Origin: Acanthamoeba castellanii str. Neff
Lineage: Eukaryota; Discosea; Longamoebia; Acanthamoebidae
Direction: 5' to 3'
Length of the DNA stretch: 64,000 bases
NCBI RefSeq assembly: GCF_000313135.1
Contig: NW_004457268.1
Span: forward strand, 666,522 to 730,521
In this document: positions 2,713 through 54,189 of the stretch, piece after piece
How the letters are laid out: the number at the start of each line of letters is the position of its first letter
How positions within the stretch are numbered: the first letter of the stretch is position 1
Program-made: the position numbers and the translations under genes
Notes under the pieces: model-generated
The model's database searches: none
Seen by the model: the letters and a program-made list of their open reading frames with translations, nothing else
Told to the model about the DNA's origin: nothing

Positions 2713-3166
2713 GGCGAGTCAGTCAGGCGGCATTGATGTCAGGGCACAGTGCCTTCACGTTGTGTTCAACCACAAACATCAGCAACATGACGCATCCTCG
2801 CGTTTTCTCTCTTCGTCGTCTTGTTGTTGGCTGCCTCGTGATGGCACGCGTGGTATTTGGCGCAGCGCCAACAGCGAAATTTCGGGCTAAACTGGTGAAG
2901 GCGGAAGCAAGCAAAGAACAGTGTTCAAGGAACGGTTTTGGCCTGTCGGCCACGACTGTGAAGTACTTTGCTCGGTATGGAAGGCAATAGAGCGAAGGCA
3001 ACCTATGGGCACTGCCTGTTAGAGACAACAAGCCAGGTACAGGAAGAGGAGGATTTGAATTCGTTGAATTGCTTGCTCCAAGATTTTGTGAAGATGAACA
3101 ACAAGGGAGCGTTTTCTGACATTTTGGAGTGTTGTTGGTTCTGGAAGAGGCAGGTGAGAGGATAAT
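2713..3166. other. Intergenic region, no gene supported
   Basis: The stretch holds the E1 3' flank and the presumed promoter and 5' UTR of the TBC gene. Short open frames on both strands show no recognisable domain. An upstream TBC exon cannot be excluded, because the ATG at 3167 is only the best candidate. Confidence 0.5.
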
Positions 3167-5116
3167 ATGGAAGAGGCAGTGCTCGCTGTTGCCGGCAACA
3201 GTACTGCCAATTGGGTGCACGCTCGGTTTGGCTTCGTCTGCCCTGCTCAGCACAGCAGGTACCCTTCACCTTCTACACCTCCACTTCTTCGCCTGCTTAT
3301 GGTGCGGCCGTGTATTCACCCGTTCCCCGTGCCAACGCGCAGCGAGACCGAAGCTGAGGCTGTGAGTCGGCGCAAGGAGGCGAAGCGCGAGCCCGAGTGG
3401 GCCGAGCTGCTGGGGTCATGGGAGAAGCACCACTGGAAGATCAAGACTGTACGTTTCCTTTCCTCTTCTCTCTCTCTCTCATGTAGCCACCGCACGTGCA
3501 ACACACACACACACACACACACACGAATCCTCTTTCCTTCACACGCACTTCCTTCACAAGCCTCGTGCTCCTCTTATTCAATCATCTCACTGTTCGGGCT
3601 GCGCAGTTGAGAAGGCTCGCGCTGAAGGGCATCCCGAACTCCCTCCGAGGCCAGGCTTGGCAGCGCCTGACGCTGTCCGCAGACCTGCGCGCCGCGCATG
3701 GACCCGGCTGCTACCAGGTTCGCCAACTTCCAACGCACACGCACACGCACCACCGCACACGCACACGCACACGCACGCATGTGTGTGGGGCCTCATGCTT
3801 TACATTCATGTCTTCAGGCAATGCTCGACGGAGAGAGCCAGTGCGTGGAGAGGATCGGCAGGGACCTGCCCCGAACCTTTCGCCAGCACGTGCTTTTCAA
3901 GGATGCGCATAGCCCGGGCCAGCAGTCTCTCCGCAACCTGTTGTTGGTACTTACGACCCCGCACACACCGCACATGCACCTCGCGCGTTACGAACTCGAA
4001 TGGGAGCTGACACTTTGATCGATCAAAAGGCCTACTCTGTGTACAATCCAACTGTGGGCTACTGCGGCGGTATGATGTCCATCGCAGCCATTCTCTTGAT
4101 GCATATGCCCGAAGAAGAGGTACACCACCATACGGGCCACCACACGGCACACACGGCACACACGACTGATGATGGCGGCGGTGGTGGTGGTTTGCAGGCT
4201 TTTTGGGTGTTTGTGCGATTAACCCTCGACCGCAACTTGGAGCCGCTGTACGTGCGTTCGCTACTCGGCCTCAAGCAGTGCCTCCACGTTTTGGACCGGC
4301 TCCTGGCCGTCTTTTTGCCCGACCTCGCCCGGCACCTTGTACGTGGTCATCGCCGGTATCATCACCACTATCATCGATGCCTTGTACTCACAGAGGCCCG
4401 CGTACGCCTCGCCTTGTGGCACCTCTCCAACAGAGTACAGAGGAGATCGACACCAACATGTTTGCCGCGCGGTGGTTCCTCACGCTGTTCACCCACAGCC
4501 TACCTTTTTCCGCGGTCGTCCGCTTTTTCGACGCCTTCGTTGTCGACGTACGTCCCCCGCTCCTGACTCCGCCGAGTTGCTCCTGAGCTCACTCAAGGGC
4601 GTATGCCGCGCGTCATGTGTGTCATGTGTGTCATGTGTGTGTCGTCATGGTTTGTTTTAGGGCTTTGACGCGCTTTTCATTATGACCATCGCCCTACTGG
4701 GGCTGTTGGCGGATCACATCAAGACGCTCAAGATGGACCAAATCCTACGATTCTTGCACACCGAACTCGAGCGGGTACCGCTGCCACGCACTACGCAATC
4801 AATCAATGTTGAACGTCCGCGTGCGCGCAGCTGATGTGTTCTTATTCTCACGCGCGTGTGCGCTTACGTGGTACGTTCTTTGTTCGTAGGGTGAACTGCT
4901 GGACGTCGAGAGGCTGATGAAGCGATACGCGAAGATGAGCACACGAGTCAGGTCCAAGGCGCACCACTTTTCCAGGCAGCATCGCGCTCTCCTGGTGCGA
5001 CCCCCACACCCACCCCTCCCCTTCATCAGCCACCCTCTAACCAGCGGTCCTTGTGCCACAAGGAGCGCGAGGGAGTCGAGTTAGTGTCGGCGAACAAGGA
5101 ACAGGGACCCGGGTAG
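3167..5116 (+). CDS. TBC-domain Rab GTPase-activating protein
   Basis: TBC proteins speed GTP hydrolysis by Rab GTPases on endomembranes. Exons join to give an N-terminal RFGFV, then WAELLGSWEKHHWKIKTLRR, then the TBC core starting at LKGIPNSLRGQAWQRL. The arginine finger is visible in IGRDLPRTF (I-x-x-D-x-x-R), about 3855-3881. The second catalytic element, normally Y-x-Q-G-M, reads YCGGM at about 4059-4073, so the glutamine finger is replaced by glycine. Next come MHMPEEEAFWVF, AARWFLTLFTHSLPF, FDALFIMTIALLGLL and a short tail ending at TAG 5114-5116. About ten exons are separated by introns rich in CA and CGCACA repeats. The order resembles GRTP1/TBC1D-type single-domain GAPs. The start codon is uncertain; the ATG at 3167 gives a sensible N-terminus with an intron at about 3260-3339. 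Confidence 0.85.
3501..3524. repeat. (AC)12 microsatellite in TBC intron
   Basis: Perfect dinucleotide run inside an intron of the TBC gene. A related imperfect CACACG-type run lies in the next intron (about 3736-3780). Confidence 0.9.
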
Positions 5117-5894
5117 TGCCCCCCCCCCTCTCCCTACACTGATCGCGCCGCCATCAGCAATCGACCATTCAGAGTAAAGCTTTACGTGGGGTGAAGTGTC
5201 TGGGTGCTTGGTGCTTGACTTTCGCTCGGGCACATCGGAGCGCCTGATGACGCACGCGCACAGAACGCAGAACGCGCACGCGCAGGGATCATCGCACGGA
5301 CCTTCCGGCCATTCGTCGCAGTGAGAGGAGTGCGCACCGACCCCGGTGTTGGTGGCGCCTTGTTCGCCAGCTCAGGGAACCCTCAAAGACCATGTGCTCG
5401 ACACGGTTGCCTGTTGATGAGGTTGGCCGTAACAACGAAATGCTATTTTCGCCTTTGCAACCCGACCAGCGGCCAATCGCAAACAAGGAATGTAAGTTAT
5501 GATGTTATGTAGCGTCGGTGTGTCGGTTGCCAACACACATTGTCCGGGTGATCAATTAACTCCGGTGTGTCTCGCAGTCCAAAACGCGACATTCCAGTCT
5601 TCCCGCGGTCTGATTGGTTGGTTGAAAGCAGGCGGAGCCAAAACGGGAACCAATCGTGCCATGCAGCGCCCGATCGGGACATGGCAGCAAATCCGGAGGG
5701 GTGAGCGTGGCCCTTCAACCTGGTCCATCACCCATGCGCCCCACCAGCACGTACCCCAGTCGCCTCTTCATCACCATGGCGCTCCGAGGCGATTTTTTTG
5801 AACTCTCTCCGTACCGGTCCTCCTCTTCTTCTTTGTTCAACACGCGGCCGAGGCAAGCACACACAACCGACAACACAAGGCGCGGCCGGCAAAC
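5117..5894. other. Intergenic, promoter region of receptor A
   Basis: This 778-base spacer holds no open frame that resembles a protein. It contains several ATTGG/CCAAT-like boxes (around 5609-5618 and 5650-5655) and poly-C runs (5120-5129). These could be promoter elements, but nothing in the sequence proves it. Confidence 0.4.
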
Positions 5895-8800
5895 ATGGTG
5901 ATGACGGTGCGGACTCTTGCGACGCTCGTGCTCAGCTTCGTTTTGGTGCATTGCTTCGCGGCGCAGTGTACGCCCCCCCCCCTTTTTCGATTTCCATCTT
6001 CGTCTTCGCTTCTTTGTAACCGACCGAACGCCACTGACCCACCCTACCTCAACTCAATTCAGGGGCGGCGCACGGAGTCCAGTTGATCGGGGCTGGAAGT
6101 CCGAATGCCGTCGACGTGATGGACGTGTGGGCAAAAACCTACCAGTACACCCGTGACGATGTCTCGTAGGCCTCCTCTCTTTTCTGTCTTTTGTCCTCCC
6201 TTTCGTTCTTCTGACCCCCCCCCCGCAATCCCTTTCTCGATGTACAGGCAAGCCTACAGCCCGATGGGCAACGACCCGGCCACCCTTCTCTACATCCAGG
6301 GCAAAGTGGTAAGGCTTCGCTTTCTCTCTCTCTCTCTCCCTTCCCCCCCCGGTCTTCGCCTTTCGTTCTTGGTCTCACCAATGGGTCCCAACCCGGTCGT
6401 CAGGATTACTTGGCGCTCGACGCTGGCGTGCCGCCAGAGCTGATCACCTTCTACGGCCTGGCCCAGTTCCCCCTTGTGGGCCAAGCGTTGGTTATGGCCT
6501 ACAACATCTCCACCCTGGGTCCCAACGACCCCGCCCTGGTACGTTTACCTCGCCCTTCCTTTCAATGAGGTCTGATAGATGGCCTCCTCATATTGCTCAG
6601 TAACACGTGTATTGTCTTTTACTATGGCCATTTTTCTGTTGTTTCCTACTGGCCTAAACAAGACCTGCGCATCGATTATTTTTAACTCCGAACGATGTAA
6701 AATGTTGTAGGTCATCGACAGGGAGACGCTGGGTCTGATCTGGGCTGGCAATATCACGGTGTGGAACGACACCCGCATCAAGAGTCGCAACCCGCCCAGT
6801 GTGGCCGACAAGCTGCCGTTCGCGCCCATCATCCTGGGCTACCACGAGGACAACAACGTCTCCGTGGCCGAGGTGGTCAAGCAGGCCCTCCAGAGCTTCA
6901 GCCCCGACTTCAAGACCGCCCTCTACGCGGCCCAGTACTTGTGGGCCAACATGACGCCGGCCCTGCAGGGCAGGAGTTTCGAGAACGGCGTCTTTGATGA
7001 TACGAAAGTCGAATTCCTCCAGGTACGGACCAACGTCCTTTGCGCGTGTGCGGTGTTGTGCGCGTGTTGCGTCGTGTGCGGTGCAAAGAGCTGACTCTGC
7101 AAAAATTATTGCAACAGACACAACCCAACAGCTTGACATACATGAGTCTGCCGGGCGCGGTCGAGTACAAGGTGCCGTACATGAACATGATAAACAAAGC
7201 CGGGGTCCTGGTCCAACCCAATATATCAACGGTTCAATCGGCGCTGGCGACGTTCAACGACTACATCTCCAAGGGCATCTTCACCATCAACGTCGTCGAC
7301 GCCAACGGCACCAACTCGTGGCCGCTCTCCTACATCATCTACTTCACCCTCAACAAGGACACCCCCTTCTCCGACTGCTCCAACGTGCAGGAGCTGATGG
7401 AGTTCGTGGCCTGGACGCAGACCAACGACGCGTGCGTCTCCTTACCAAGCGCTCAGAGCTGTTATTGAACTTTGTTAGTTTTAACTCCGACCATGTTACG
7501 CCACGTGCACATACAGGGCTTCGGAGGTGGCCACCACTTCAAACTACGCACCGCTGGACGTCTCCCTACGCAAGGCAGTCATCGACGCGCTGGCCGGTAT
7601 CAGCTGCCGAGGCGAGCAGGCCTACAAAACGGCCTACCTGGTCGGCGCAGGCGCGCCGATACCGCTCTACACAGCATGGAGCGTGGCGCGCACGTCGGCC
7701 ACCAACAAGATGAAGTTCTACCAGACGTCGTCGACTGAGGCCAAGCAGCAGCTGAGCCAGTACAACCTCCACTTCGGCATCAGCAGCAACGGCCTGAGCG
7801 AGGATTGGTACACTGAGATGTCCGACGTCGCGCTCATGCCCTCCTCGGTCTACGCCTTTGTGCCTGGTACTTGCCCACACCAACGTTTTTTTAGCTCCGA
7901 TGTGCGATATTTTACCTCCGAAGCACTCACGCCACGTCCGTGCAGCCTTCAACCTCCAGAACGTGACCGACGGCGGACTCGAGCTGGTGCTCGACTTCAA
8001 CACCATCGCGTTGATCTACCTCAATCAGATTACGATGTGGAACGATCAGCGCATCAAGGATCTCAACCCCGCCGCTACCGCCGCCGCGCTGCCCAACGCG
8101 CCGATCGTGGTGATCACCTCCTCGGTCGCGTCGGACCTCACCCAGCTCTTCACCACCGTGCTGGCCCGCACCGTGTCCGCGTTCGAGGCGGCGGTGGTCC
8201 CCGGACCCTCCGCCACCTTCCCTGTCCAGGGCGCCGGCCCGAGCAGGTCCATCATCGTCGACAGCCCCGAAGAGATGATCAGCACCCTGAGCGCCACCAG
8301 CAACGCATTCTGCTTCGCCAATGGCTACGATATCACGCTGGTAAGCGCCTACACAGTGTGTTGCATGTCGTCTGTGCCTGTGCGTGCGATCGCGCATTGC
8401 TCACAGTGACGGTCGCGCACAGACACGAACCCTCGGAACGGCCTCGCTGGTGAACTCGGCCGGCAATGTGGTCAAGGCCTCTGTCACCACGCTCACCAGC
8501 GCGCTCAACGACTACGTGGCCGGCCAGACCGTGTCCACCAACCCGAGCCGCCGCGCCGGGTCCGGCCTTGCCTTTGACTCCGCCCTTCTCGGTTTGTCTT
8601 CTCCTTCGCTCCTTTGCGCCGCATCCAGCCGTTGCTCACCGCACGCGCATGCGCACCTGCAAACAGGAACGGGAGCGAGCAGCTGGCCGCTGGCGACGTT
8701 TGGTTCGTTTGTGTACCGGTCTGAGAGCATGCAGGAGTGCGCCAAGGCTGCGGCTCTGGCCAGCTTCTTCTACTGGAGCCAAACTGATCCCATCGCACTC

Positions 8801-11800
8801 CAGAACGCTGACCGGTACCGTACACGCACACACAGCACGCGCACATGCACCACCGCACACGACGGTTACTGACACACCGCACACGACGCCACACGCACAG
8901 ACAGGGTATGGTGGTGCCGACGACCGTGGATACGATCAACCGCTCTTTCCTCGAACAGCTCAAGGCCTTCACGTGTAACGGGGTGGCCGTGAGCGAGCTC
9001 TCCAACTGCATCAACGACGGCCAGCTCTGCTCCGGCGACGGTGGCGTCTGCACCAACAACAAGTGCGTGTGCAACCCCGACAGGGAGGGCACATACTGCG
9101 AGGACTTTGTCTCCGGATCCGACAGCCCGCTCGGAATCATTCTCGGTACGCTGGCTCAGCCCATTGCCTTGTGTCATCATTTATGTCCGATTAGACTCAC
9201 CATTTCGTTCTTCGTTCTTCATTCTTCGTTCTTTTATGTCCGACGTATTGTTAAACAGGCGTGGTGATCCCGGTGGCGGTGATTGTCCTGTGCTCACTGC
9301 TGTTGCTGATCGTGGTGCTGATGGTGATCATCCGCCGCAAGGGCAACAAGTCCGACGACTGGGAGATCGACTATGGCGAGCTCGACCTCGGCGAGCACCT
9401 CGGCGCCGGCGGCTTCGGTGAGGTCCACCGCGCCACGTGGAAGGGCACCGAGGTGGCCGTCAAGGTCATGACCTCGGAGAAGATCACCAAGGAGATGGAG
9501 AAGTCCTTCAAGGACGAGGTACGCCGCACAACGCGCCCTATCACTCCGCTGATGGTCATGACGACAACTGGTCTCTGACGATGATGGTGGTGGTGGTGAT
9601 GATTGTACAGGTGCGGGTGATGACGGCGTTGAGGCATCCCAACGTGGTGCTCTTCATGGCGGCCTCGACTAAGGCGCCCAAGATGTGCATCGTCATGGAG
9701 TTCATGACCCTCGGCTCCCTCTACGACGTACGTTTCGTGTGCAATTGTGAGTGTGTGTGCGTGTGTGGTGCGTTTTCGATCGTGTGCGGTTTGGTTGACG
9801 CTTCTTTGCGCGTGTGACGTGTAACTGTAACAGTTGCTGCACAACGAGTTGATTCCGGACATTCCGTTCCAGCTCAAGGGCAAGATGGCCTACCAGGCCT
9901 CCAAGGGCATGCACTTCCTCCACTCGTCGGGCATCGTGCACCGCGATCTCAAGTCGCTCAACTTGCTGCTCGACGCCAAGTGGAACGTCAAGGTGAGAGT
10001 TCACACCGCACACGCCGCACACGCACACGCACGACACGCAGTGAATCGAGGCTAACGTGCTTTGGTACGAGCAGGTGAGCGATTTCGGTCTGACCAAGTT
10101 CAAGGAGGACGTCAAGGGCAAGGGCGACAAGGACGTGGCCGGCAGCGTGCACTGGACCGCGCCCGAGATCCTCAACGAGTCGCCCGACGTGGACCACATC
10201 CTGGCCGACGTCTACTCCTTCGGCATCATCCTCTGGGAGCTCCTCACCCGCGAGCAGCCCTACTTTGGCATGAGGTCCCCTTGCCCCCCCACATTCTCAA
10301 CATTCCATAGCTTCATATCTTTTCTCTATATATCTTAAATAATTATTACTATATTCATGCATGATTTTTTTAAAAAATATTTGTATTACATGTGAATAAC
10401 ATTTCTTTATTTTTCTTCGTGTGCAGCCCGGCCGCTGTGGCGGTGGCGGTGATCAGGGACAACATTCGGCCCAAGATGCCCGAGCCCCCGGGCGCCTGCC
10501 CGCAGGAGTTCGAGGAGCTGATCACCAGCTGCTGGCACCAGGACCCGACCATCCGCCCGACCTTCCTCGAGGTCATGACCCGCCTGTCGTCCATGAACGG
10601 CGACTCGTCCGGCACCGGCGGCGTCTCGTTCACCTCCAAGACCACCTCGACCTCGACCTCGTCGGGCGGCAACTCGGCCGACGCCCGCCCGCCCAAGAAG
10701 AACATCTACGGCTCGTGGGGCCTGCCCTCGACCCAGGCCTCCACCTCGACCGGCTCCTCGTCGGCCTCCAACGCGTCCAAGAACTACTCGGCCCACGCGG
10801 CGGCGGGCGGCGGCGGCGTGCGCGCGCCCGAAGGCGAGGTGACGATCGTGTTCACCGACATCACGCGCGCCGCCTCGCTCTGGGAGTTCAACGCCGCGAC
10901 CATGCGCGACGCCACGCTGCTCCACAACGACACCCTGCGCGCGGCGCTCAAGCGGCACCGGGGCTACGAGGTGGTGTTCCTCAACAACCGCAACAGCGGC
11001 GAGGGCTCGTTCTGTATGGCCTTCCAGCAGGTGGCCGACGCGCTGGCCTGGTGCGCCGACGTGCAGAAGGCCCTGCTGGAGGTGGAGTGGCCCGAGGCGC
11101 TGCTGGACCACCCGGGCGCGGCCGAGGAGTGGGGCGACACCGACGACCGTGTGCTGTTCAAGGGCCTGCGAGTGCGCATGGGCGTGCACGTGGGCGCGCC
11201 CAAGGTGGTGCGCGACCCGATGACGCGGCGGGTGGAGTACATCGGGCCGGTGGTGAACGCCGCGGCGCGCATCACGGCCATGACCCACGGCGGTCAGATC
11301 GTGCTGAGCCACGCCGTGCACAGCCAGATTAAGGAGGCGCCCGACGTCAGCAAGCGGCTGGTGCGCCTGGGCAAGTTCGAGATGCCCGACGCGCCCCACG
11401 GCGCCAAGCTCTACGAGCTCAAGGTGCCCGGCCTCGAGTCCCGCTTCTTCGGCGGCGTCACCAACGATGGCGAGGCCAGCTCCGGCGACTCCCCCGCCAG
11501 CGGCGACGACCGCGGCCCACGCAAGGAGCGCCCCGTCGCCGACGGCAGCGGCAGCGGCTCGGCCAGCAGCGACGGCGGCCGGCGCGATGAGCTGCAGACC
11601 GCGGTGGGCGAGGGCATGATGTTCAAGGAGGACACCTTCCTCACGTCGGCCAACCTGTGCCGCTGGATCATCGACTTCCACGAGATCCAGATCGGCAAGC
11701 AGGTCGGCCTGGGGTCGTATGGCGTGGTCTACCGCGGCAAGTGGAAGGGCGTCGACGTGGCGGTGAAGCGGTTCATCAAGCAGAAGCTCGACGAGCGGCG

Positions 11801-12476
11801 CATGCTCGAGTTCCGCGCGGAGATGGCCTTCCTGTCGGAGCTCCACCACCCCAACATCGTCCTCTTCATCGGCGCGTGCGTGAAGCGGCCCAACCTGTGC
11901 ATCGTGACCGAGTTCATGAAGCAGGGCTCGCTCAGGGACATCCTGGCCAACAACACCATCAAGCTCACGTGGAAGCAGAAGATGCGCATGCTGCGGTCGG
12001 CGGCGCTGGGCATCAACTACCTGCACTCGCTCCACCCGGTCATCGTGCACCGCGACCTCAAGCCGTCCAACCTTCTGGTGGACGAGAACATGAACGTGAA
12101 GGTGGCCGACTTCGGGTTCGCGCGCATCAAGGAGGAGAACGCCACCATGACCCGCTGCGGCACGCCGTGCTGGACGGCGCCGGAGATCATCCGCGGGGAG
12201 AAGTACGACGAGCGGGCCGACGTGTTCTCGTTCGGCATCATCATGTGGCAGGTGGTGACGCGCAAGGAGCCCTATGCCGGGCGCAACTTCATGGGCGTGT
12301 CGCTCGACGTGCTCGAGGGCAAGCGACCGCAGATCCCCAACGACTGCCAGCCCGAGTTCAGGAAGGTGATGAAGAAGTGCTGGCATGCCAGCGCCGACAA
12401 GCGGCCCAAGATGGAGACCGTTCTCGCCTTCCTCGACGCGCAAGTGGGCGACGAGGACAACATCGCCGCACCCTAA
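5895..12476 (+). CDS. Receptor A: dual PstS-like ectodomain, TM, kinase-cyclase-kinase
   Basis: Sixteen exons (5895-5967, 6063-6165, 6248-6308, 6404-6538, 6711-7022, 7118-7431, 7517-7866, 7946-8340, 8423-8591, 8667-8814, 8901-9145, 9259-9518, 9611-9727, 9834-9992, 10075-10274, 10427-12476) sum to 5091 nt, 1696 aa. A signal peptide (about residues 1-23) precedes two tandem PstS/PBP-like domains. Each has a T(L/I)-x-x-I-(W/Y) helix, as in [16 protein letters not shown] and [16 protein letters not shown], and a late SWPL...FV/FYW motif. A Cys-rich EGF-like segment ([15 protein letters not shown]) and one TM (about 770-795) follow. Kinase 1 has [15 protein letters not shown] and DFG. The class III cyclase starts at [11 protein letters not shown] (about 1151). 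Kinase 2 (about 1435-1685) has [15 protein letters not shown] and DFG. Both kinases look TKL-like and catalytically complete. The ligand is unknown; phosphate or another anion is inferred only from the fold. The whole cytosolic half from the end of kinase 1 onward is one 2-kb exon. Confidence 0.88.
10275..10426 (+). other. AT-rich intron inside kinase 1 of receptor A
   Basis: This 152-base intron (GTCCCC donor, GTGCAG acceptor) is strikingly AT-rich beside exons near 65-70% GC, and is longer than most introns here. Receptors B and C have no intron at this place, so it is specific to copy A. Confidence 0.7.
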
Positions 12477-26582: not shown

Positions 26583-26654
26583 CTTGCTTGGGCTTGGTGG
26601 TAAAGGTGATGTGGTTTTGGTACAATAAAAATGAGAATGTCCGTGATTGCGCAA

Positions 26655-40420: not shown

Positions 40421-43400
40421 TTACAGGCCGACGTCTTGGTCGTCGCCCACCTGCTGATCGAGGAAGGCGACGATGGTCTCCATGGTGGGCCGCTTGTCGG
40501 CCGACGCGTGCCAGCACTTCTTCATCACCTTCTTGAACTCGAGCGGGCAGTCGTTGGGGATCTGCGGTCGCTTGCCCTCGAGCACGTCGAGCGACACGCC
40601 CATGAAGTTGCGCCCGGCATAGGGCTCCTTCCTCGTCACCACCTGCCACATGACCACGCCGAAGGAGAACACGTCGGCGCGCTCGTCGTACTTCTCCCCG
40701 CGCAGGATCTCCGGCGCCGTCCAGCACGGCGTGCCACACCGGGTCATCGTGGCGTTCTCCTCCTTGATGCGCGCGAACCCAAAGTCGGCCACCTTCACGT
40801 TCCAGTTCTCGTCCACCTGTACACACATCCATCAGCATGGGTTAGATGTGACGGACAGACAATAGCAAGCGCGTGGTTAGACGAGCGTACGAGCAGATTG
40901 GAGGGCTTGAGGTCGCGGTGCACGATGACCGGGTGGAGCGAGTGCAGGTAGTTGATGCCCAGCGCCGCCGACCGCAGCATGCGCATCTTCTGCTTCCACG
41001 TGAGCTTGATGGTGTTGTTGGCCAGGATGTCCCTGAGCGAGCCCTGCTTCATGAACTCCGTCACGATGCACAGGTTCGGCTTCTTCACGCACGCCCCTGA
41101 CAGACGGAGAAGATCGCAACGTGAGAGTGCATCATATGTGTTGTGACACAACGGAATAAGGTTGTTGTCAGAGTGTGTAGGTACCGATGAAGAGGACGAT
41201 GTTGGGGTGGTGGAGCTCCGACAGGAAGGCCATCTCCGCGCGGAACTCGAGCATGCGCCGCTCGTCCAGCTTCTGCTTGATGAACCGCTTCACTGCTATG
41301 TCGACGCCCTTCCACTTGCCGCGGAACACCACGCCGTAGGACCCCAGGCCCACCTGCTTGCCCACCTGGACCTCAGAGAAGTCGATGATCCAGCGGCACA
41401 GGTTGGCCGACGTGAGGAAGGTGTCCTCCTTGAACATCATGCCCTCACCCACCGCCGTCTGCAGCTCGCCTTCGCCGCCGCCGTGGTCGTCGCCGGCACT
41501 GGATCCGCTCATGGGCTCGTCGATCGACTTGCCGCTCTTGTTGTTGCTGGGGTGATCGCTTGATGTGTTGTCGTGCGTGACGCCGCCGAAGAAGCGGCCC
41601 TCGAGGCCATCGACCTTGAGCTCATAGAGTTTCGCCCCTGCATTATCATCGGGAGCGACATCGATGGCACACATGTCAGTTCATGCTACACCTTAAGGGT
41701 GGTCTTGGTCGGCTGGGCGAGTACCGCTGGGAGCGTCGGGAATTTCGAATTTGCCCAGGCTCGCCATCACCCGCGGCTTCTGCTCGCCGGTCTGGTCGTC
41801 CTTGACCCTGTCGTGGACGGTGTGGCTCAGCACGATCTGGCCGCCGTGGGTCATGGCCGTGATGCGCGCCGCGGCGTTGACCACCGGCCCGATGTACTCC
41901 ACCCGCCGCGTCATCGGGTCGCGCACCATGCGCGGCGTGCCCATGTGCACGCCCATGCGCACTCTCAGGCCCTTGAACAGCACCCTGTTGTGTGGAGGCT
42001 GGTGGTCAAACCACCTGGTTCAGCGATGCTGAGCAAAAGGGGCAAAGCGTACCGATCGTCGGTGTCGCCCCACTCTTCGGCCGCTCCCGGGTGCTCCAGC
42101 AACGCCTCGGGCCACTCCACTGCGAGCAGCGCCTTTTGCACATCACTGCACCAGGCGAGCGCATCGGCGGCCTGCTGGAAGGCCATGCAGAAGGAGCCCT
42201 CACCGCTGTTCCGGTCCCGGATGAACACCACCTCGTAGCCGCGATGCCGCTTCAGCGCCTCGCGCAGGGCGTCGTTGTGGAGGAGCGTGGCGTCGCGCAT
42301 GGCCGCCGCGTTGAACTCCCACAGCGACGCCGCGCGTGTGATGTCCGTGAACACGATCGCCACCTCGCCCTCTGGCGGCTTGATCCCGGCTGCAGTGCCG
42401 GCTGCCGCTGCTTCCTGCGAGGTCGACGAGTTGGATGACGACGAGGTGCCGGTGGAGCCCGCCGATGATGGAACTGTCCACGAGCCGTACATGCTCGACG
42501 GACCAGCCTTCTTGCCGCCAGAGTGGCCCGACGACGAGGAGGAGGTGTGGCTGGTCGAAGTGGCGCCGATCGAAGTGTTGGAGTCGCCGTGCATGGCCGA
42601 CAGCCGCGTCATGATCTCGAGGAACGTGGGCCGGATGGTGGGGTCCGAGTGCCAGCAGCTGGTGATCAGCTCCTCGAACTCGGCCGGGTGGGTGAGGCCG
42701 GCGTCGACGGGCATGGCCGGCCGGATGCCGTCGCGGATCACCGCCACGGCCACGGCCGCCGGGCTCATGCCGAAGTAGGGCTGCTCGCGCGTCAGCAGCT
42801 CCCACAAGATGATCCCGAAGCTGTACACGTCGGCCAAGATCTAGTCCACGTCAAGCGACTCGTTGAGCACCTCGGGCGCGGTCCAGTGCACGCTGCCGGC
42901 GATATCCTTGCCCGCGCCCTTGGCGCTGACGTCCTCCTTGAACTTGGTGAGGCCGAAATCGCTCACCTTGGCGTTCCACTTGGCGTCGAGCAGCAGGTTG
43001 AGCGACTTCAGATCCCTGTGCACGATTCCTGCACAAATCATCGGGGAAGAATGAAGCGCGATGAGCAAATGGAATGAAGGGCGAGGTGGTAAGGTGGCGA
43101 GAAGGTGGCAAGATCAGTACCGGAGGAGTGGAGGAAGTGCATGCCCTTGGAGGCCTGGTAGGCCATCTTGGCCTTGAGCACGAACGGCAGCTCCGGGATC
43201 AGCTCGTTGTGCAGCAACTGCACACACCACCAAAGGATTAGTTTAACCGCACCACGGGTTGATCAGCTCACTAAGGCGGAAGGAGGAAAGGGGAGGGAAG
43301 CATTATACGTCGAAGAGAGAGCCGAGGGCCATGTACTCCATGACGATGCACATCTTGGGCGCCTTGGTCGACGCCGCCATGAAGAGCACCACGTTGGGAT

Positions 43401-46400
43401 GCCGCAACGCCGTCATCACTCGCACCTGTGCCGTCGCCATGACGGTGATCAGCTTCATTCCAAAAAGAAGCAAACATGTTCGCTGGGTTGCGAGTAAGCG
43501 GGGGAGGGGGCACGAACCTCGTCCTTGAAGCTCTTCTCCATGTCCTTGGTGATCTTGTCCGACGCCATGACCTTCACCGCCACCTCGGTTCCCTTCCACG
43601 TCGCCTTGTTCACTTCGCCATATCTGTACCGGCCCATCAAGGGACACCCAATGGGTCAACAACCAGGACCAGGCACTTTCTCTGAAAAGCTACAGTGGCA
43701 ACGTACCCGCCGGCGCCGAGCTGCTCGCCGATCTCGAGCTCGTCGTAGCTGATCTCCCAGTCGTCCGACTGTGTGCCCTTGCGCTTGATGACCACGATCA
43801 GCACCACGATCAGGCACACCAGCAGGCACAGCACCAAGCCCGCCGAGGGGATCACCACGCCTGCCCACACATGGTCAGCAGTCCGTTATAAGGCCCCGAG
43901 GAGCTTGGCCACGATGTGAACGCACCGAGGACAATGGGCAGGGTCGTGTCAGACGAAGAACCGACCAAGCTCTCGCAGTATTGGCCCTCCCGCCCGCTTT
44001 GGCACACACATCCGTTTTCAACGCACGAGCCGGCGTCCGAGCACAGCTGGCCGTCGAACACGCAGTTGGCCACTTGGCTCACGCGCAGCCCCTTGCACGT
44101 AAACTCCCTGAGCTGGTTGAGGAACCGAGCCTTCAAGGCCTCGTTCGAGATGGTGAGCACGAATCCTTGCCTGTGGTGCGGTTTTGGGTCAGAGTCTCGG
44201 ACAGATGAGACGTGCGTTCTGGCGTCAGGAGGGAGTAGAAGTGCGGGGGCGCGTGCCTGTTGGCAACCTGAACTGGCGCTGGAGCGGTCTGGGCCCAGTA
44301 CAGGAAGTTGGCCAACGCTGCCGCTTCGTCGCAATTGCTCATCGAGCTCTGGCGGTAGATCACCGACGCAAAGGCTGCCACAGGCCAGCTGCCCGGGCTC
44401 GACCCTGGTCCAATCATTGGAGAGGGGGGACAAATGGAGGTCAGCACCAAACATCGGCCACGAAGCCAGAGGACGGCGTTCACGCAGAGTACCCAGCAAG
44501 AGGCTATCGGAATGGACCTCCGTTTGCCCGTTTGCCGTCATGTCCTCCACAGCACTGCGCACCGAATCTGCGCTGGCGCTCACCACTACGCCCGACGATT
44601 TCCTGATCGCCGCCGCCTTCACTTGCTGGGTCTGCAGTTGCACCGTTAGTCAGCCAGTCAGTCAGTCAGTCAGTCAGTCAACGAAAGCCGGGCCGACGCC
44701 AGGGCAGGGGCTGGTACCTGGCGGATGTCGCTCACCGACCAGAAGGCGAACGAGTATGTGATCGTGCGCAGCGATGTCATCGCATCCGTCGTCACCTCCA
44801 CCGATCGATTGTCGCTCGTGTTCTGCACCGGAAACGACACCAGAGCACCTGCTCCCACCTGAAAGAGAGAGGCCGCCACCGTCAACCATCAACCATCGCA
44901 TTCCAATCTGTGAGCGACATTCAACAACGCGGGCGGGCCTACCTGGGCGGCGAAATCGGGCACCGTGGCGTTGAGCACCGTCGTAAACAGACTCGTCAGC
45001 CCTGTGGCAACCGACTGCGTGATGACGTAGATGGGTTGCGAGGGCAGTACGGCGACCACCTCGGCCGAGTTGAGGGCCTGAATACGAGGGTCGTCCCACA
45101 TGGTGATCTCGTTGAGGTAGATCCTCGCGATGGTGTCAAAGTCCAGCACCAGCTCGAGCCCGGCCAGCTCCGGGATGTTGTATGCTGCGGGCGTGGACAA
45201 AGTGCGAGTGAGTTGTTGCTCAAAGTACAGAAGAACGAAGAACGAATGAAGAAGGCGCGCACCGGGTGCCATTGCGTAGGCGGCCATCGGCAAGAGCGCC
45301 GCATCGCTCATCTGGCCCACCCACTCCTCCGACAGCCCGTCGTTCACCAGGCCAAAGTCCACGTCGTACGTTCTCAACTGCTGCTTGGCATCGTAGGAAG
45401 TGCCCACGTAGTACTTCATCTTGGTGTCCAACGACGACCAGGCCACGCTCCACGACGTGATCAGCGACAGCGGCGCGCCCAGGCCGATGAGATAGGCTGT
45501 CGAATAGGCCTGCTGCCCGTTACATCGCACCGTGTTGAGCAGACTCACGAGCCGCTCTCGCAGGCTTACGTCGAGCGGCGCCACGTTGATCTTGGTCGCT
45601 TCTGTGCTCGCCCTGTTGTTGTCGTCATGGAATCCATCAGGTTTAGTGCATTGCGCAGCGTAGTAAGTGGAGACGTACGCGTCGTTGGTCTGCACCCAGG
45701 CCACGAAGGCCAGCAGCTCCTGGATGTTGGTACAGTCGCTCGCCGTCACGTTCTGCTTGAGCGACAGGTAGCTCATGTACGCGATGGGCCACGAGGCATT
45801 GCCTTTAGCGTCCACGATGTCGATGGTGAAGTTGCTGCTCCCGTATTCGACGCCAAAGTCGGCCATGGCCGACTGCACGGATGCCACCGACGGTCGCACG
45901 AGCTTGCCGGCCTTGTTGATCATGTTCATCCACTTGAACGGCGACGACACCGTGTCGGCATAGCTCATGAATGTCATGCTGTTGTCGTTGGCCTGTACAT
46001 TCCAGCAACAAGGGACCACACATGCAGGGTGAGTAGACCCAGCAATGTCGACCCAGTGGCGGAGGTATGGGCACCTTGAGCCAGTTGAGCCGAGCTGCGG
46101 TCGAGCTGCCGGCGGAGACGCGCTGTGCGGGCGGCATGCCGGCCCAAAGGCGGTTGGCCGCAGCGAGCGCCGTCTTGAACTCGACGCTGAAGCTCTCCAG
46201 CGCCAGCTTGAGCACCTCCACCAGTGAGATGGCTGAGTTTTCGTTAATTCCGATGACGATGGTTGTGTTGGGCAGCTTGTTGGCGATAGTCGGGTTGAGG
46301 TCCTTGAGGCGCTGGTCGTTCCAGTGGGTGACGGTGCCCAGCCAGATGAGGCCCAGCGTCTCCCTGTCCACCACCTGCCGTCCACTTTTGTTACCAAGCT

Positions 46401-47173
46401 GCCCGAGCCCTCCACGTAGAGGCTTGTCCCGAGGCCGCAAGGTAACGTACGATGTTGGGGTCGGTGGGGCTGAGGGCGGTGATGGTTGTAGGCCATACAA
46501 TGGCCTGGCCCACAAGCGGCAGCTGAGCGAGGCCGCCGTACTGGGCCGACAGCTGAGCCGACAGGCCTCTGTCCAGCACCATGAAGTCCTGGATGTGTGC
46601 ATTGCACAAAAGAAGAAGATTAAAGCCGCCCAATTTCAATTGAAAATGCCAATGGAATCAAAAGTAGCAGAAGATTTCGTTTCCAAAACGTACCGCAGTG
46701 CCATTTGTGTAGTCGGATAAGGCCTGCGTGATGCCCGAACCTGAGTAGGAGACACTACGTGGCCAGAGAGTAGCGGGAGCGAGGTCATGCTCAAGATTAG
46801 AAAAATGACTGGCTCCCGGCCGTTTCCGCTTTCTTTGGGTTTCCTAACACGAGTGTGTGGTGCGTTCTTGCGCCCTAGCGCAACGGGTCCAGACCCCGTG
46901 GGCCAGGAGGTGGTAGGACGGTACCTGATGTCATCGCGGATGAAGAGGTAGGCCGGGCTCCACTGATTGAAGACGGAGACCACGTTGGGCGAGCCGGCGC
47001 CGTACAATTGAACCCCGTTGGCTACCGCCCCCCCCCGCAGGCGATCACGGTGAGGGACGTGGTCGTTCACAATGAAAAAGTTGGACGGACGTGGTCGGTT
47101 CTACGATACCATGGTAGGCCACCAGAAGCAAGACCAGGCTGAACAGGAATACGCTGGTGGTGCGGCTGAACAT
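40421..47173 (-). CDS. Receptor B: PstS-like ectodomain, TM, kinase-cyclase-kinase, one premature stop
   Basis: Same architecture as receptor A. Signal peptide MFSRTTSVFLFSLVLLLVAY (ATG 47173) leads through a small intron to NGVQLYGAGSPN. PstS-like blocks include ETLGLIWLGTVTHWNDQRLK and ARIYLNEITMWDDPRIQAL. An EGF-like stretch (CSDAGSCVENGCVCQSG) and TM LVLCLLVCLIVVLIVVI follow (about 43770-43840). Kinase 1 spans about 43735-42690. The cyclase starts at [15 protein letters not shown] (about 42358). Kinase 2 runs to TAA 40421-40423. The one defect is TAG (42841-42843 on the plus strand) after ESLDVD, where receptor C has TTG (Leu). All other exons keep frame. If real, it ends the protein inside kinase 1 and removes cyclase and kinase 2. 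An intron explanation was not found. It could also be a sequencing error or a strain polymorphism. Confidence 0.8.
44648..44680. repeat. (GTCA)n tetranucleotide repeat in receptor B intron
   Basis: About seven tandem CAGT units in the intron between the second-PBP exons, absent from receptor C at that place. Confidence 0.85.
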
Positions 47174-47514
47174 CTTGGACACCTCTTACACACGGCGCTC
47201 GGACACCTATCTGCTTCTTCTTGCCGTTTTGTGTTGTGTTTTATGTTGTGGTTGTTGGGGTGTGGTTGTTCCTGCCGCAGTTCGTGTCAGGAGTGCAGCG
47301 CTGTTACGAAGACCAGTGGTGCTACCGGAGTCTTGACCTCGCGCCCCAATTGGTCCCACTTATAGGAAACTCCCAATCCCATTTTCTTGCGATCGATCAC
47401 CGAGCTTGTGCATTGCAACAGGCCTCATTCATTGGTACAGGCGGCCCGAGGCGAAAGTTGAGGGGTGAAGGTGGTTCTTTACCGTTACTCGTTTAGCTTA
47501 CAAACTGAGGCCTA
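47174..47514. other. Spacer between tandem receptors B and C
   Basis: This 341-base spacer serves as promoter and 5' UTR of receptor B and 3' flank of receptor C. It holds no coding frame with recognisable motifs. The 3' flanks of B and C share almost nothing beyond the stop codon, so the duplicated unit ends near the stop. Confidence 0.5.
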
Positions 47515-50500
47515 TTACAGGCCGACGTCTTGGTCGTCGCCCACCTGCTGATCGAGGAAGGCGACGATGGTCTCCATGGTGGGCCGCTTGTCGGCCGACG
47601 CGTGCCAGCACTTCTTCATCACCTTCTTGAACTCGAGCGGGCAGTCGTTGGGGATCTGCGGTCGCTTGCCCTCGAGCACGTCGAGCGACACGCCCATGAA
47701 GTTGCGCCCGGCATAGGGCTCCTTGCGCGTCACCACCTGCCACATGACCACGCCGAAGGAGAACACGTCGGCGCGCTCGTCGTACTTCTCCCCGCGCAGG
47801 ATCTCCGGCGCCGTCCAGCAGGGCGTGCCGCACCGGGTCATCGTGGCGTTCTCCTCCTTGATGCGCGCGAACCCAAGTCGGCCACCTTCACGCTCCAGTT
47901 CTCGTCCACCTGTACACACGGCGCCTCACGAGTTAGGTCAATGACTATGACTCATCGACGACAAGGTTGATTGGTTGTGGTGGATGGGCGTACGAGCAGA
48001 TTGGAGGGCTTGAGGTCGCGGTGCACGATGACCGGGTGGAGCGAGTGCAGGTAGTTGATGCCCAGCGCCGCCGACCGCAGCATGCGCAGCTTCTGCTTCC
48101 ACGTGAGCTTGATGGTGTTGTTGGCCAGGATGTCCTTGAGCGAGCCCTGCTTCATGAACTCCGTCACGATGCACAGGTTCGGCTTCTTCACGCACGCGCC
48201 GATGAAGAGGACGATGTTGGGGTGGTGGAGCTCCGACAGGAAGGCCATCTCCGCGCGGAACTCGAGCATGCGCCGCTCGTCCAGCTTCTGCTTGATGAAC
48301 CGCTTCACTGCCACCTCGACGCCCTTCCACTTGCCGCGGAACACCACGCCGTACGAGCCCAGGCCCGACCTGCTTGCCCATCTGGATCTCGTGGAAGTCG
48401 ATGATCCAGCGGCACAGGTTGGCCGACGTGAGGAAGGTGTCCTCCTTGAACATCATGCCCTCGCCCACCGCCGTCTGCAGCTCTCGACCGCCGCCGTCGC
48501 TGCTGGTGGTCGACGCGCCGCTCATGGGCTCAACGTGGTCCATCGACTTGCCGCTCTTGCCCTTGCTGGTGTGGTGGTCGCTCGACGCGTTGTCGCTGTC
48601 GCGCGTCACGCCACCGAAGAAGCGACCCTCGAGGCCGTCCACCTTGAGCTCGTACAGCCTCGCGCCTGGGGCGTGTCGGGAATCTCGAACTTGCCCAGAC
48701 TGACCAGGGTGCGTCGCTTGGGCTGGTCCTGGGTCTGCGCCGGCTCTTCGTCCTTGATCTTGTCGTGAACGGTGTGGCTCAACACGATCTGGCCGCCGTG
48801 GGTCATGGCCGTGATGCGCGCCGCGGCGTTGACCACGGGGCCGATGTACTCCACACGCCGCGTCATCGGGTCGCGCACGGTGCGTGGGGTGCCCAGGTGC
48901 ACGCCCATTCGCACGCGCAGTCCCTTGTACAGCACTCGATCGTCGGTGTCGCCCCACTCCTCGGCCGCTCCCGGGTGCTCCAGCAGCGCCTCGGGCCACT
49001 CCACTGCGAGCAGCGCCTGCTGCACGTCGGCGCACCAGGCGAGCGCATCGGCGGCTTGCTGGAAGGCCATGCAGAAGGAGCCCTCGCCGCTGTTCCGGTC
49101 CCGGATGAACACCACCTCGTAGCCGCGATGCCGCTTCAGCGCCTCACGCAGGGCGTCGTTGTGCAGCACTGTGGCGTCGCGCATGGCCGCCGCGTTGAAC
49201 TCCCACAGCGACGCCGCGCGTGTGATGTCCGTGAACACAATCGTCACCTCGCCCTCCGGTGGTCTGACCCCTCCGACGCCGGCGACGGCCGCCACGGCCG
49301 CCTGCGAGGCCGACGAGTTGGACGACGATGAGGTGCCGGTGGAGCCCGCCGATGATGGCAGCGTCCACGAGCCGTACATGCTCGACGGACCAGCCTTCTT
49401 GCCGCCGGTGCCATCGCTGGCCTTTCCGCCAGAGTGGCCCGACGACGAGGAGGTGTGACTCGTCGAAGTGGCGCCGATCGAAGTGTTGGAGTCGCCGTGC
49501 ATGGCCGACAGCCGCGTCATGATCTCGAGGAACGTCGGGCGGATGGTGGGGTCCGAGTGCCAGCAGCTGGTGATCAGCTCCTCGAACTCGGCCGGGTGGG
49601 TAAGGCCGGCGTCGACGGGCATGGCCGGCCGGATGCCGTCGCGGATCACCGCCACGGCCACGGCCGCCGGGCTCATGCCGAAGTAGGGCTGCTCGCGCGT
49701 CAGCAGCTCCCACAAGATGCTCCCGAAGCTGTACACGTCGGCCAAGATCAAGTCCACGTCGAGCGTCTCGTTGAGCACCTCGGGCGCCGTCCAGTGCACG
49801 CTCCCGGCCACCTCCTTGCCCAGGCCCTTGGCGCCCACGTCCTCCTTGAACTTGGTGAGGCCAAAGTCGCTCACCTTCACGTTCCACTTGGCATCGAGCA
49901 GCAGGTTGAGCGACTTCAAGTCCCTGTGCACGATTCCTGCACAATGTATCATCACGAGTGAGAAAGAGAGAACTAAATCGTGCGAAAAAAGAACGAAGCG
50001 AAGAGGCGAGAAGGTGGCAAGATCAGTACCGGAGGAGTGGAGGAAGTGCATGCCCTTGGAGGCCTGATAGGCCATCTTGGCCTTGAGCACGAACGGCAGC
50101 TCCGGGATCAGCTCGTTGTGCAGCAACTGTCCGCCAGGCAAGTAGTGGTGAGCAACAGAGCAAGGTAGAGCACTCCAGAGCAAGAAATAGGGGGCGTACG
50201 TCGAAGAGGGAGCCGAGGGCCATGTACTCCATGACGATGCACATCTTGGGCGCTTTGGTCGACGCCGCCATGAAGAGCACCACGTTGGGATGCCGCAGCG
50301 CCGTCATCACTCGCACCTGTCCCATTGTAATTTCAGCACAAGGTACCTTGGTACCCAATCTCCAAGTAAGCGGGGGAGGGGGCACGCACCTCGTCCTTGA
50401 AGCTCTTCTCCATGTCCTTGGTGATCTTGTCCGACGCCATGACCTTCACCGCCACCTCGGTTCCCTTCCACGTCGCCTTGTTCACTTCACCATATCTGGT

Positions 50501-53500
50501 GCAGGTTTGGGTCAGATGGAGTTGAAGACTGGCAGAACGTATCGTATGGCGACGATCAGTGGCGACGTACCCGCCGGCGCCGAGCTGTTCGCCGATCTCG
50601 AGCTCGTCGTATTCGATCTCCCAGTCGTCCGACTTGTCGCCCTTGCGCTTGATGATCACCACCAGCACCACGATCAGACACACCAGCAGGCACAGCACCA
50701 GGGCCGCCGATGGGATCACCACGCCTGCGCGCACATCCACCATTCGTCACAAGTGAACGCATGGCTGTGTTGGAATGAAGAGAGTTGGGGGCTTACCGAG
50801 GGCAATGACGAGCGTGTTGTCGGAGGACCCGGAGATGGTGCCCTCGCAGTACTGGCCCTCCCGGCCGGTATTGCACAGACACTTGTTGTTGGTGCAGACG
50901 CCCGCGCCCGAGCACAGCTGGCCGTCGTTGATGCAGTTGGCCACATGGCTCACGGTGTCACCGTCGCATGTGAAGGCCTTGAGTTGGTTGAGGAACCGGC
51001 CGCGTAGCTGCGCCTCATTCGTCACAAGCACGAAGCCTTGCCTATCGGCCACCTGACCAGCGGTAGTCGAGGTCTGGGCCCAGTACAGGAAGTTGGCCAG
51101 CGCTGCGGCCTCGGTGCAGTCCTCCATGGTGCTTTGGTGATAGATGATCGAGGCAAACGAAGCAATGGGCCAACTGTCCGCGCCCGATGCTGTGCAGTTG
51201 TGCGCCGCAGTGAGTAAGTGCGTGTGAGTTGAGAACAGGTCAACGTAGGCGAAGGAGGGCGTACACAGCAGCAGGCTTTCGAACGAGGTCTGTCCGCTCG
51301 CTTCGTAGTCGCTCAGGGCGCTGATCAGCGATTCCGAGGTGGGGCTCACCACTCTGCCGGCCGAGTTTTTCATCGCCGCTGCGCCGATCTTTCGGGCCTG
51401 CACACAACATTGATTGAATTGTGAGCCCAAACGCCACCATGCAAGAGGAGGAGGTGGAAGTGGTAGTGGTAGTTGTAGTGGTAGTACCTGGCGCACGTCG
51501 TAGTTCGCCCAGAATGCGAAGGAGTAGTCATTGTCGCGGAGGTAGGTCATCGTATTGACGTTGTCCAACACAATCGACCGGTTGTTGCCCGCGCTTTGCA
51601 CGGGGAAGGTCACCAGCTCCCCCGATCCGACCTGGGCGGCGAAATCGGGCACCGTGGCGCTGAGCGCCGTCGTGAAGACGCTGGTGGTGCCGGCGGCGAT
51701 CGACTGCGTGATGACGACCACGATGGGCTGCGACGGCAGGGCGGCGACCACCTCGGGCGAGTTGAGGGCCTGGATGCGCGGGTCGTCCCACATGGTAATC
51801 TCGTTTAGATAGATGCGCGCCACGGTGTCAAAGTCCAGCACCAGCTCGAGACCCTCGAGCTCTGGGATGTTGTAGGCCGGAACCAGGGCGTAGGCGGTGA
51901 GGGGCATGAGCGCGGCGTCGCTCATCTCGGCGTACCAATCAGCCGAGAGGCCGTCGCTCACCACGCCGAACAGGACGTCGCTCGAACTGAGCTGTTGCTT
52001 CGCGTTGCTCGACGTGCCCTCGAAGTACTTCATCTTGCTGAGCTGGGACGACCAGGACACGGCCCACGAGGTCATGAGCGGCAGCGGCGTTCCCGTGCCA
52101 ACCAGGTAGGTGGTCTCGTAGGCGGTCTTGCCGTTGCACTCCACCGTGTTCAACAGGCTGATGAGTCGTTCGCGCAGGCTCACATCGATCGGGGCCACGT
52201 TGATATTCCTTGCTTCTTGGCTCGCCCTGTCAGTGATGACAATGACGATAGTTAGCAATAGGTCCATGGGCGGAGGGAAGCGCAATAACACGTACGCGTC
52301 ATTGGTTTGGACCCAGGCGACAAACGAGAGCAGCTCGAAGATGTTGGTGCAGTCGAAGTGGTGAGGTTCTGCTGCATGGACAGGTAGTTCATGTAGGCGA
52401 TGGGCCACGATGCGTTGCCGTCTGCGTCGATGATGTCGATGGTGAAGTTGCTCTGGTCGAATTGCTCGCTGAAGTTGTCCATGGCCGCTTGCACCGACGC
52501 GACGGAGGGTCGGACGAACTTGCCGGCCTTGTTGATCATGTCATCCACTTGAACGCGACGACACCGTGTCGGCGTAGTTGAGGAATGTCATGCTGTTGTC
52601 GTTGGCCTGCAACATTCGTGCACGAATTGTAAGCAACACCAAACTTTGATTGGGCGCTACGTCAGACTTACCGCAAGCCAGTTCAACCGGGCCAGGGTCG
52701 AGCTGCCGGCTGGGACAGCGGTGCCGCGTTGCGCTGGCGGCATGTCGGCCCAAGTGCGGTTGGCCGCCTCGAGGGCATTCCTGAAGTCCACGCTGAAGCT
52801 CTCCAGCGCCAGCTTAAGCACCTCGATGACCGAGATAACGCCGTTTTCGTTGTAGCCGATCAGGATCGACGCGTTGGGCAGCTTGCTGGCGATGGCCGGG
52901 TTGAGGTCCTTCAGGCGCTGGTCGTTCCAGTGGGTGATATTACCCGCCCAGATGAGGCCCAGCGTTTCCCTATCTACCACCTGTGTTCGGAGTTAAAACA
53001 ACATCACTTTTAACTCCGAGCTGGGCCAGTCACCCAAGGTAACGTACGATGTTGGGATCGGTGGGGCTGAGGGCGGTGAGGTTGTAGGCCATCACCATGG
53101 CTTGTCCGGCCAGCGGCATTTGAGCGAGACCGCCGTACTGGGCCGAGACCTCAGCCGAGAGGCCTCTGTCCATGACCAGGAAGTCCTGTAACGGTGGGCC
53201 GCTCAATTGGTCAGTGGCCGAATACTATCAGTCGAGAGTTGAGGCAACGCACCGCGTCGCCTCGAGCGTAGGTGTCTAAGGCCGGAGTGATGCCAGAACC
53301 CTCGTACAACACACTGCACGTCAACCACACCAAACACCGTTGATTGGGTGAACCTTATAAATGTCATTTACCCTTTTAAGCCTAATTGTTTCCAGGCCCG
53401 AGAACGCCGCGGCAATTTGCACTGGGGTGGCCAACGCAACGTGCAGTACTGTACCCGACGTCGTCACGGATGAAGAGGTAGGCCGGGCTCCACTTGTCGA

Positions 53501-53709
53501 AGAGGGAGACTACGTTGGGCGCGCCCACTCCGTAGAGTTGGACGCCGTAGGCCTGCGCTGCTAGCGCGACACCGCGATACGACCACAGGCGGTGAGAAAG
53601 GAATCGTGGCTGACCGCACGTTCTTGCCCGGGCGGGTCAGCGTACTATGGTACACGATCACCAGGAGAAGCAATCCCAAGCAGAGTTGTGAAGCTATGCT
53701 GCCGGCCAT
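47515..53709 (-). pseudogene. Receptor C: third copy, disrupted by several single-base indels
   Basis: Same domain order as A and B from ATG 53709 (MAGSIASQLCLGLLLLVIVY) to TAA 47515-47517: PstS-like domains ([39 protein letters not shown]), EGF-like, TM VLCLLVCLIVVLVVII, kinase 1 (complete), cyclase (complete), kinase 2. Against B the frame breaks at about 52554 (1-base loss), 52540 (loss), 52355 (loss), 48667 (loss, in the linker after the cyclase), 48367 (gain, in the kinase 2 glycine loop) and 47874 (loss, in the kinase 2 DFG). No single frame can make the full receptor. Single-base indels that cluster in two zones fit pseudogene decay or assembly error; neither can be chosen here. The first part of the ectodomain is intact in frame. 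Confidence 0.6.
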
Positions 53710-54189
53710 GGTTGTCGTACTGCCGGAGAGGGGGAGGGTGCTGGACGGGTTGTGTGGTGGAAAGGAGAGACAAAGGAAAACGCACACTGCAGACAGTGAC
53801 CACCTCACGTTTATAGGTGCCTCGGTTGCCTCGGCAGCGCCCTGTCCGCCAATGAACACAGCTCCGCCTAGCTGATTAAAAGTTGACAGGCGCACAGTTA
53901 CCTTTGGTAAACCAACGAGGCACCTAGTACTTTTTTTTACCCGTAGGACATCCCGTTGCAACCTGTGAACGAGACTGGCGAAGACCACCACCGAGCTAAC
54001 TCAGTGTTATGCGTGAAGAGAAAAGAACTCGTGTATTGAACAAAAGGCGAATAAATATCTGTACAGCCACTTGTCAGAGGCACCCGACACAGGAGACGAG
54101 CCTACGTACGATCAGGGTCTAGCGGCAGAGTAGGAAAATGTGGGCAAGATGGTTGGGCGCGGTGCTGGTCGTGCGGTTGTGCAGCGCGA
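53710..54189. other. Intergenic region, no gene supported
   Basis: It holds the receptor C promoter side and the 3' flank of the RING gene. Short frames lack motifs. Confidence 0.5.

Follow-up and report, generated by a model that had tools for sequence, protein, structure and literature searches.

Gene A and its predicted product

The stretch of DNA considered here, called the window, comprises 64,000 nucleotides of Acanthamoeba castellanii str. Neff (contig NW_004457268.1, positions 666,522 to 730,521). One of its genes, gene A (5895..12476, forward strand), is predicted to encode a single-pass cell-surface receptor made of two tandem domains of PstS descent, a Cys-rich stalk, a kinase, a class III cyclase-like domain, and a second kinase. 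Splicing by hand gave 16 exons: 5895-5967, 6063-6165, 6248-6308, 6404-6538, 6711-7022, 7118-7431, 7517-7866, 7946-8340, 8423-8591, 8667-8814, 8901-9145, 9259-9518, 9611-9727, 9834-9992, 10075-10274, and 10427-12476. Together they form a single open frame of 1696 codons and one stop, with GT-AG borders at 15/15 introns, so that the bounds, exon number, and length given in a preliminary description of this DNA were reproduced. A spliced alignment returned identical bounds; its query was the gene A protein itself, and it serves as a consistency check only.

The protein starts with a hydrophobic leader (residues 1-24; 5895..5966), a putative signal peptide judged by eye. Profile matches then delimit the PstS-like domains D1 (residues ∼26-334, exons 2-7; 6065..7520) and D2 (residues ∼371-715, exons 7-11; 7629..8985). 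A Cys-rich EGF-like stretch follows (residues 723-753; 9007..9099), and next comes the strongest hydropathy peak of the protein, taken as the transmembrane helix (residues ∼770-793; 9261..9332). The intracellular part would consist of kinase 1 (residues ∼807-1072; 9372..10601), the class III cyclase-like domain (residues 1148-1343; 10827..11414), delimited by Pfam, a match in the PDB, and alignment, and kinase 2 (residues 1434-1682; 11685..12431). Both kinases, which we take to be of the TKL type as labeled earlier, match Pfam and have all of the expected motifs: the glycine loop (817 and 1441), the VAVK Lys (834 and 1458), HRD (930 and 1555), and DFG (950 and 1575).

Profile searches bear out this order, PBP-PBP-transmembrane helix-kinase-cyclase-kinase (PBP, periplasmic binding protein), which had already been read from the letters. 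The three Pfam models named at that time were all matched: PBP_like_2 in two stretches (E 3.8e-16; together 60.1 bits against a cut-off of 27), PK_Tyr_Ser-Thr in two stretches (E 1.1e-129), and Guanylate_cyc (E 1.4e-10). As for the claim of two tandem PstS/PBP-like domains, the NCBIfam PstS model TIGR00975 matches the first half of the ectodomain with 90.3 bits (E 1.2e-25) and the second with 101.2 bits (E 5.7e-29), far beyond chance as sequence comparison goes. Both halves miss the equivalog cut-off of this model (205 bits); a paralogue at another locus, L039, reaches 228.1 bits with its two domains summed. The EGF-like segment stands as a Cys pattern: no Pfam EGF domain was matched in the gene A protein at E ≤ 0.1, and L039 does match EGF_Teneurin (E 2.4e-6).

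The ectodomain and the phosphate site of PstS

PstS is the closest known relative of the ectodomain in sequence and, for the first domain, in fold. The PstS fold of the first domain is supported by the predicted structure of a relative, the amoeba-like protein P0001, rather than of gene A itself, and to that extent the expected outcome of structure prediction was obtained. The question is whether the site that holds phosphate in the bacterial protein has been kept. Six positions of E. coli PstS were compared (T10, S38, D56, R135, G140, and T141); we take these to be phosphate contacts there and to be equivalent, by the same spacing, to the first six contacts of PhoX, a relative of PstS. In PhoX, phosphate is held by Ser34, Ser62, Asp80, Arg159, Gly164, Thr165, and Asn201 (PMC5439949).

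Most of the canonical phosphate contacts are lost in the gene A ectodomain. D1 keeps D56 alone of the six, and D2 keeps S38 alone, together with S139. At position 135, D1 has His or Glu depending on the alignment, and Arg in neither case. Hence, the idea of phosphate sensing through the PstS site is weakened, since each domain has one of six contacts.

The relatives of gene A in the genome show a similar pattern. Here, the unit counted is the aligned row (the open frame of an exon), so that one gene may count repeatedly, and the totals differ between positions since some exons lack some of them; rows from the loci L046 and L043 were set apart, and those of C203a, which run out of frame through introns, were left out. 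T10 is kept in 1/23 D1 rows and 0/26 D2 rows, R135 in 1/24 and 0/26, and T141 in 2/25 and 4/26. Other cleft residues are shared among D1 rows, namely Y134 (22/24) and G58 (11/26). The scaffold positions are near invariant. Averaged over ten contact positions, the entropy is higher than in the domain as a whole, in D1 as well as in D2; sets of positions drawn at random reach such a value in 4.5% (D1) and 7.2% (D2) of cases. This is a weak test, the sequences being related. Such losses are compatible with a ligand other than phosphate, for example another anion.

A different picture is found at L046 (G000:C48:112500-122000), where PBP, EGF-like, and single weak kinase matches lie at ∼1480-6300 (+), with a hydrophobic stretch recognized by eye; these are matches rather than a spliced model. 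Its second PBP domain keeps nine site positions (T10, S38, D56, R135, D137, G138, S139, G140, and T141), so that an intact site, lacking from the expanded family, is present at one receptor-like locus of this genome. L046 may be a real phosphate receptor-kinase. At L043 (G000:C176:146000-155500), a PstS-like stretch at ∼2100-3800 (+) has a canonical-looking RTDGSGST loop and an ISDAP motif, both seen by eye; no kinase match was found in the stretch fetched there.

The cyclase-like domain

The best PDB match of the cyclase-like domain of gene A is 1fx4, the trypanosome receptor adenylate cyclase GRESAG4.3 (E 2.2e-20), so that the class III fold claimed in the preliminary description is upheld; the cyclic-nucleotide signal claimed with it was assumed, and it is here that the residues raise doubts. 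Twenty-five domains were aligned: those of gene A, its paralogues B and C in the window, and the paralogues L049 and L039, along with 20 stretches from other clusters, mostly uninterrupted ones. Catalytic roles (metal Asp, Lys, purine Asp, Asn, and Arg) were assigned to positions as we presume them to be. All 25 domains depart from the canonical catalytic set. All but one (24/25) retain the first metal Asp, and the transition-state Asn and Arg are kept in 15/25 and 19/25; the purine Asp is replaced by Glu in 21/25. At the second metal Asp, Glu is present in 20/25 and Asp in 0/25, and the Lys position has Arg in 19/25 and Lys in 2/25, these two positions lying on a hairpin with extra residues where the alignment is uncertain. 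Gene A keeps the first Asp, the Asn, and the Arg, and its second Asp position aligns with Glu on the same uncertain hairpin. The domain that separates the two kinases has degenerated strongly in L049 and L039, and most of its catalytic positions are altered in both.

A family in the genome

The preliminary description spoke of two further copies in the window, and both were located on the reverse strand with the same plan as gene A: paralogue B (40427..47185) and paralogue C (47521..53806), the first exon of the latter (12 bases) being doubtful. Because the best spliced model of each contains one in-frame stop, these copies may be damaged, misassembled, or mismodeled.

The genome scan covered 38.4 Mb in 250 contigs. 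The best profilin of this genome is identical over 125 residues to profilin II of A. castellanii (PDB 1f2k), which makes A. castellanii, or a strain very close to it, the likely source; a second profilin locus, probably read on the wrong strand, had no PDB match. The scan gave 79 cyclase clusters, a cluster being a set of matches merged by distance and not a gene model. At 62/79 of them, a PstS-like match lies no more than 4.5 kb upstream and shares the strand of the cyclase, where uniform placement expects ∼0.4; 4/79 have such a match downstream on the same strand, and 0/79 have one on the opposite strand. The PBP scans scored part of their candidates (64/315, 126/204 for the curated family, and 65/237), and the upstream count depends on the match set: it falls from 62 with all sets to 60 without the 65/237 scan, 59 with the curated family alone, and 40 with the earliest sets, which include the 64/315 scan. 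The uniform expectation is unsound because related genes cluster, but clustering alone does not explain the asymmetry of strand and direction. The plan of gene A seems to recur in numerous related receptor genes.

From the side of the ectodomain, 13/76 PBP clusters are without a downstream cyclase match, and 11 of these 13 were fetched. Both kinases were found at seven of the 11 (L039, L042, L044, L045, L047, L048, and L049); L041 has the first kinase and lies at a contig end, and the other three are L046, with its weak kinase match, and L043 and L040, both without one, the stretch of L040 being interrupted by a run of N. At L049 (contig C99, 2091-7142), both PBP domains, a hydrophobic, presumably transmembrane segment, and both kinases lie in one uninterrupted frame of 1683 codons. 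PADLOC matches of L049 were taken as generic kinase matches.

Relation to known systems

The statement that kinase-cyclase-kinase proteins form a large class in Acanthamoeba agrees with the literature. In the genome paper, 67 nucleotidyl cyclases of A. castellanii are described as a receptor domain, a single transmembrane segment, and a cyclase flanked by kinases, a configuration that also occurs in giant viruses (Clarke et al. 2013, PMC4053784). A later paper counts 66 such cyclases in A. castellanii and 43 in Physarum (PMC4758236). Gene A, with its single transmembrane helix and its cyclase-like domain between two kinases, very probably belongs to this family. As for the outer half, the terms "PBP", "PstS", and "periplasmic" have no occurrences in the main text of PMC4053784, in whose passages on these cyclases the receptor domain is not identified, and no description of a PstS-type ectodomain on amoebal kinase-cyclase receptors was found in the portion of the open-access literature covered, supplements aside. 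We class gene A as a probable member of this known family whose ectodomain is of a type not found described there.

A related case comes from Plasmodiophora brassicae, whose 7tm3 proteins carry bacterial solute-binding or PBP_like_2 domains, for which the authors propose a horizontal origin (PMC4815078). Like gene A, these proteins have PBP_like_2 outside a eukaryotic membrane protein; unlike it, they have seven transmembrane segments, are proposed transporters, and are without kinase or cyclase. The term PBP_like_2 is also listed among the abbreviations of a paper on social-amoeba G-protein-coupled receptors.

Bacterial PstS proteins (E. coli PstS, PhoX) are related in sequence to both halves of the ectodomain and, by the structure predicted for P0001, in fold to the first. 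Unlike them, gene A would carry its PstS-like domains in tandem on a receptor anchored in the membrane, has lost most of the phosphate contacts, and is not part of a transporter. The trypanosome cyclases GRESAG4.1/4.3 and the animal receptor guanylyl cyclases have, like gene A, one transmembrane segment and an intracellular class III cyclase, but not the kinase-cyclase-kinase order. Their extracellular domain is of the flytrap type, of another flytrap class than that of gene A. BvgS of Bordetella has tandem periplasmic flytrap domains, one transmembrane segment, and a kinase; the latter is a histidine kinase, and the flytrap family is again different.

A further link leads to giant viruses. 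A fold search with the predicted ectodomain structure matched Ser/Thr kinases of Pandoravirus inopinatum (A0A0B5J011, E 1.8e-29), P. quercus (A0A2U7U9Y4, E 1.4e-25), and Bandra megavirus (A0A2K9V9A7, E 3.9e-22). These viral proteins resemble gene A in predicted ectodomain structure, the part by which they were compared. By sequence, neither the gene A ectodomain nor kinase 1 found a relative on the viral contigs scanned, and when the ectodomain was searched against full-length proteins, none of the 7990 candidates scored reached E ≤ 1e-3. Of 7999 proteins scored with a five-domain profile, 11 had E ≤ 1e-8, including P0001 and the bacterial-type P0002 (L051). P0002, which matches this receptor PBP profile best among proteins of bacterial type, has one genome match, a metagenome-assembled genome of Anaerolineaceae, at 69% identity; this hints at a Chloroflexota-like source, and nothing more is claimed.

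What might the receptor sense?

Taken as a whole, the explanation that we favor, and hold to be reasonably probable, is that gene A encodes a flytrap receptor of PstS descent, with two outer domains of the Venus-flytrap (type II periplasmic-binding) kind, whose ligand is other than canonically bound phosphate. The ligand, whether a small molecule, an oxyanion of another sort, or something made by prey bacteria, would close one or both clamshells, and closure would rearrange a receptor dimer across the membrane, resetting the kinases and the cyclase-like domain. The kinases might then phosphorylate each other and their targets, while the cyclase-like domain might either make a cyclic nucleotide with its altered site or act mainly as a dimerizing scaffold. 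All steps beyond the fold are drawn by analogy with other flytrap receptors, namely BvgS, the receptor cyclases of trypanosomes, and the receptor guanylyl cyclases of animals. A set of small-molecule or prey-derived ligands that differs between copies would best fit the variable cleft; a role for gene A as a nutrient sensor, as proposed earlier, is a guess.

Several observations weigh against this explanation. A part of the oxyanion site may remain, because some contacts are often kept: D56 in 16/26 D1 rows (0/24 in D2), G140 in 9/25 D1 rows (2/25 in D2), S38 in 17/25 D2 rows (1/15 in D1), and S139 in 16/26 D2 rows (0/25 in D1). The excess variability of the contact positions is weak, PstS mutants at 56 and 137 have been solved with phosphate bound, as the titles of the structure entries indicate, 17/79 cyclase clusters have no PBP match, and the D2 structure model, taken from copy C of the window, was poor (mean predicted local distance difference test score 45.5) and was not used. 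Could gene A then be a true phosphate sensor, binding inorganic phosphate through a rearranged site and reporting its level? The kinship with PstS, the D56 of gene A D1 and its sister rows, and the phosphate carried by mutated PstS all speak for it; the near disappearance of R135, T10, and T141 and the presence of a sister locus with an intact site in the same genome make it quite improbable. A little less so, though still unlikely, is an ectodomain that senses nothing, its PBP folds being without a small ligand and serving adhesion, dimerization, or protein contact, perhaps as a surface exploited by giant viruses or prey. Drift at the contact positions over a near invariant scaffold and the similar ectodomain on giant-virus kinases would suit it, but the cleft is non-random, with Y134 and G58 recurring in D1 and S38 and S139 in D2.

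Other alternatives concern the rest of the protein. The receptor might signal by its kinases only, with a cyclase-like domain that is a catalytically dead scaffold giving no cyclic nucleotide: the second metal Asp is missing throughout, Asn and Arg are kept in part of the domains, and L049 has no Pfam Guanylate_cyc match at E ≤ 0.01. The changes are, however, conservative and shared, the hairpin alignment is uncertain, and, with the first Asp, Asn, and Arg retained in gene A, an altered enzyme is at least as fitting as a dead one. We lean slightly toward the enzyme and regard the scaffold as a real contender, somewhat short of an even chance; it is compatible with the flytrap receptor described above, so that the likelihoods of the two overlap. 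A false fusion of a PBP gene with a kinase-cyclase gene in the gene model is far less credible. It is true that the introns were placed by hand, from genomic DNA alone. Nevertheless, the artefact is rejected because of the open frame, the GT-AG introns, and the paralogue L049 with both halves in one frame; the pairing of PBP and cyclase matches on the same strand and never on the opposite one, and the receptor-transmembrane-kinase-cyclase-kinase order already published for A. castellanii (PMC4053784), also argue against it. The outer and inner halves would thus be one gene.

If the flytrap receptor is correct, a bacterial transport protein would have been converted to a eukaryotic receptor that is shared with giant viruses. 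A tandem PstS-type ectodomain at the 62 paired clusters would give the family an expressible, testable ligand-binding fold, and L046 on C48, with its intact phosphate site, would be the in-genome control for ligand binding. A broader and more tentative proposal, which we put at below even, is that the receptor-cyclase family is a chemosensory repertoire: a domesticated bacterial PstS was doubled, its cleft was diversified over ∼60-80 genes, giant viruses carry copies, and the C48 receptor-kinase may still sense phosphate.

Other features of the window

Seven cyclase clusters, including A, B, and C, lie in the terminal 160 kb of their contig (G000:C235:574322-715801). Contig and window terminate in a GT repeat, and no telomere repeat was seen in the last 501 bases. 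Among the other frames of the window, one on the reverse strand (25200-26672) is open over 490 residues and has a PAP2 match of 24.9 bits, just short of the 27.2 bits that Pfam requires, and another (27600-28907, reverse) has SAM and PB1 domains. On the forward strand, 34319-35914 is a PseudoU_synth_2 frame, and two frames are of low complexity, one with a Ser/Ala/Pro repeat (32077-33444) and the other rich in Lys and Ala (59670-61481).
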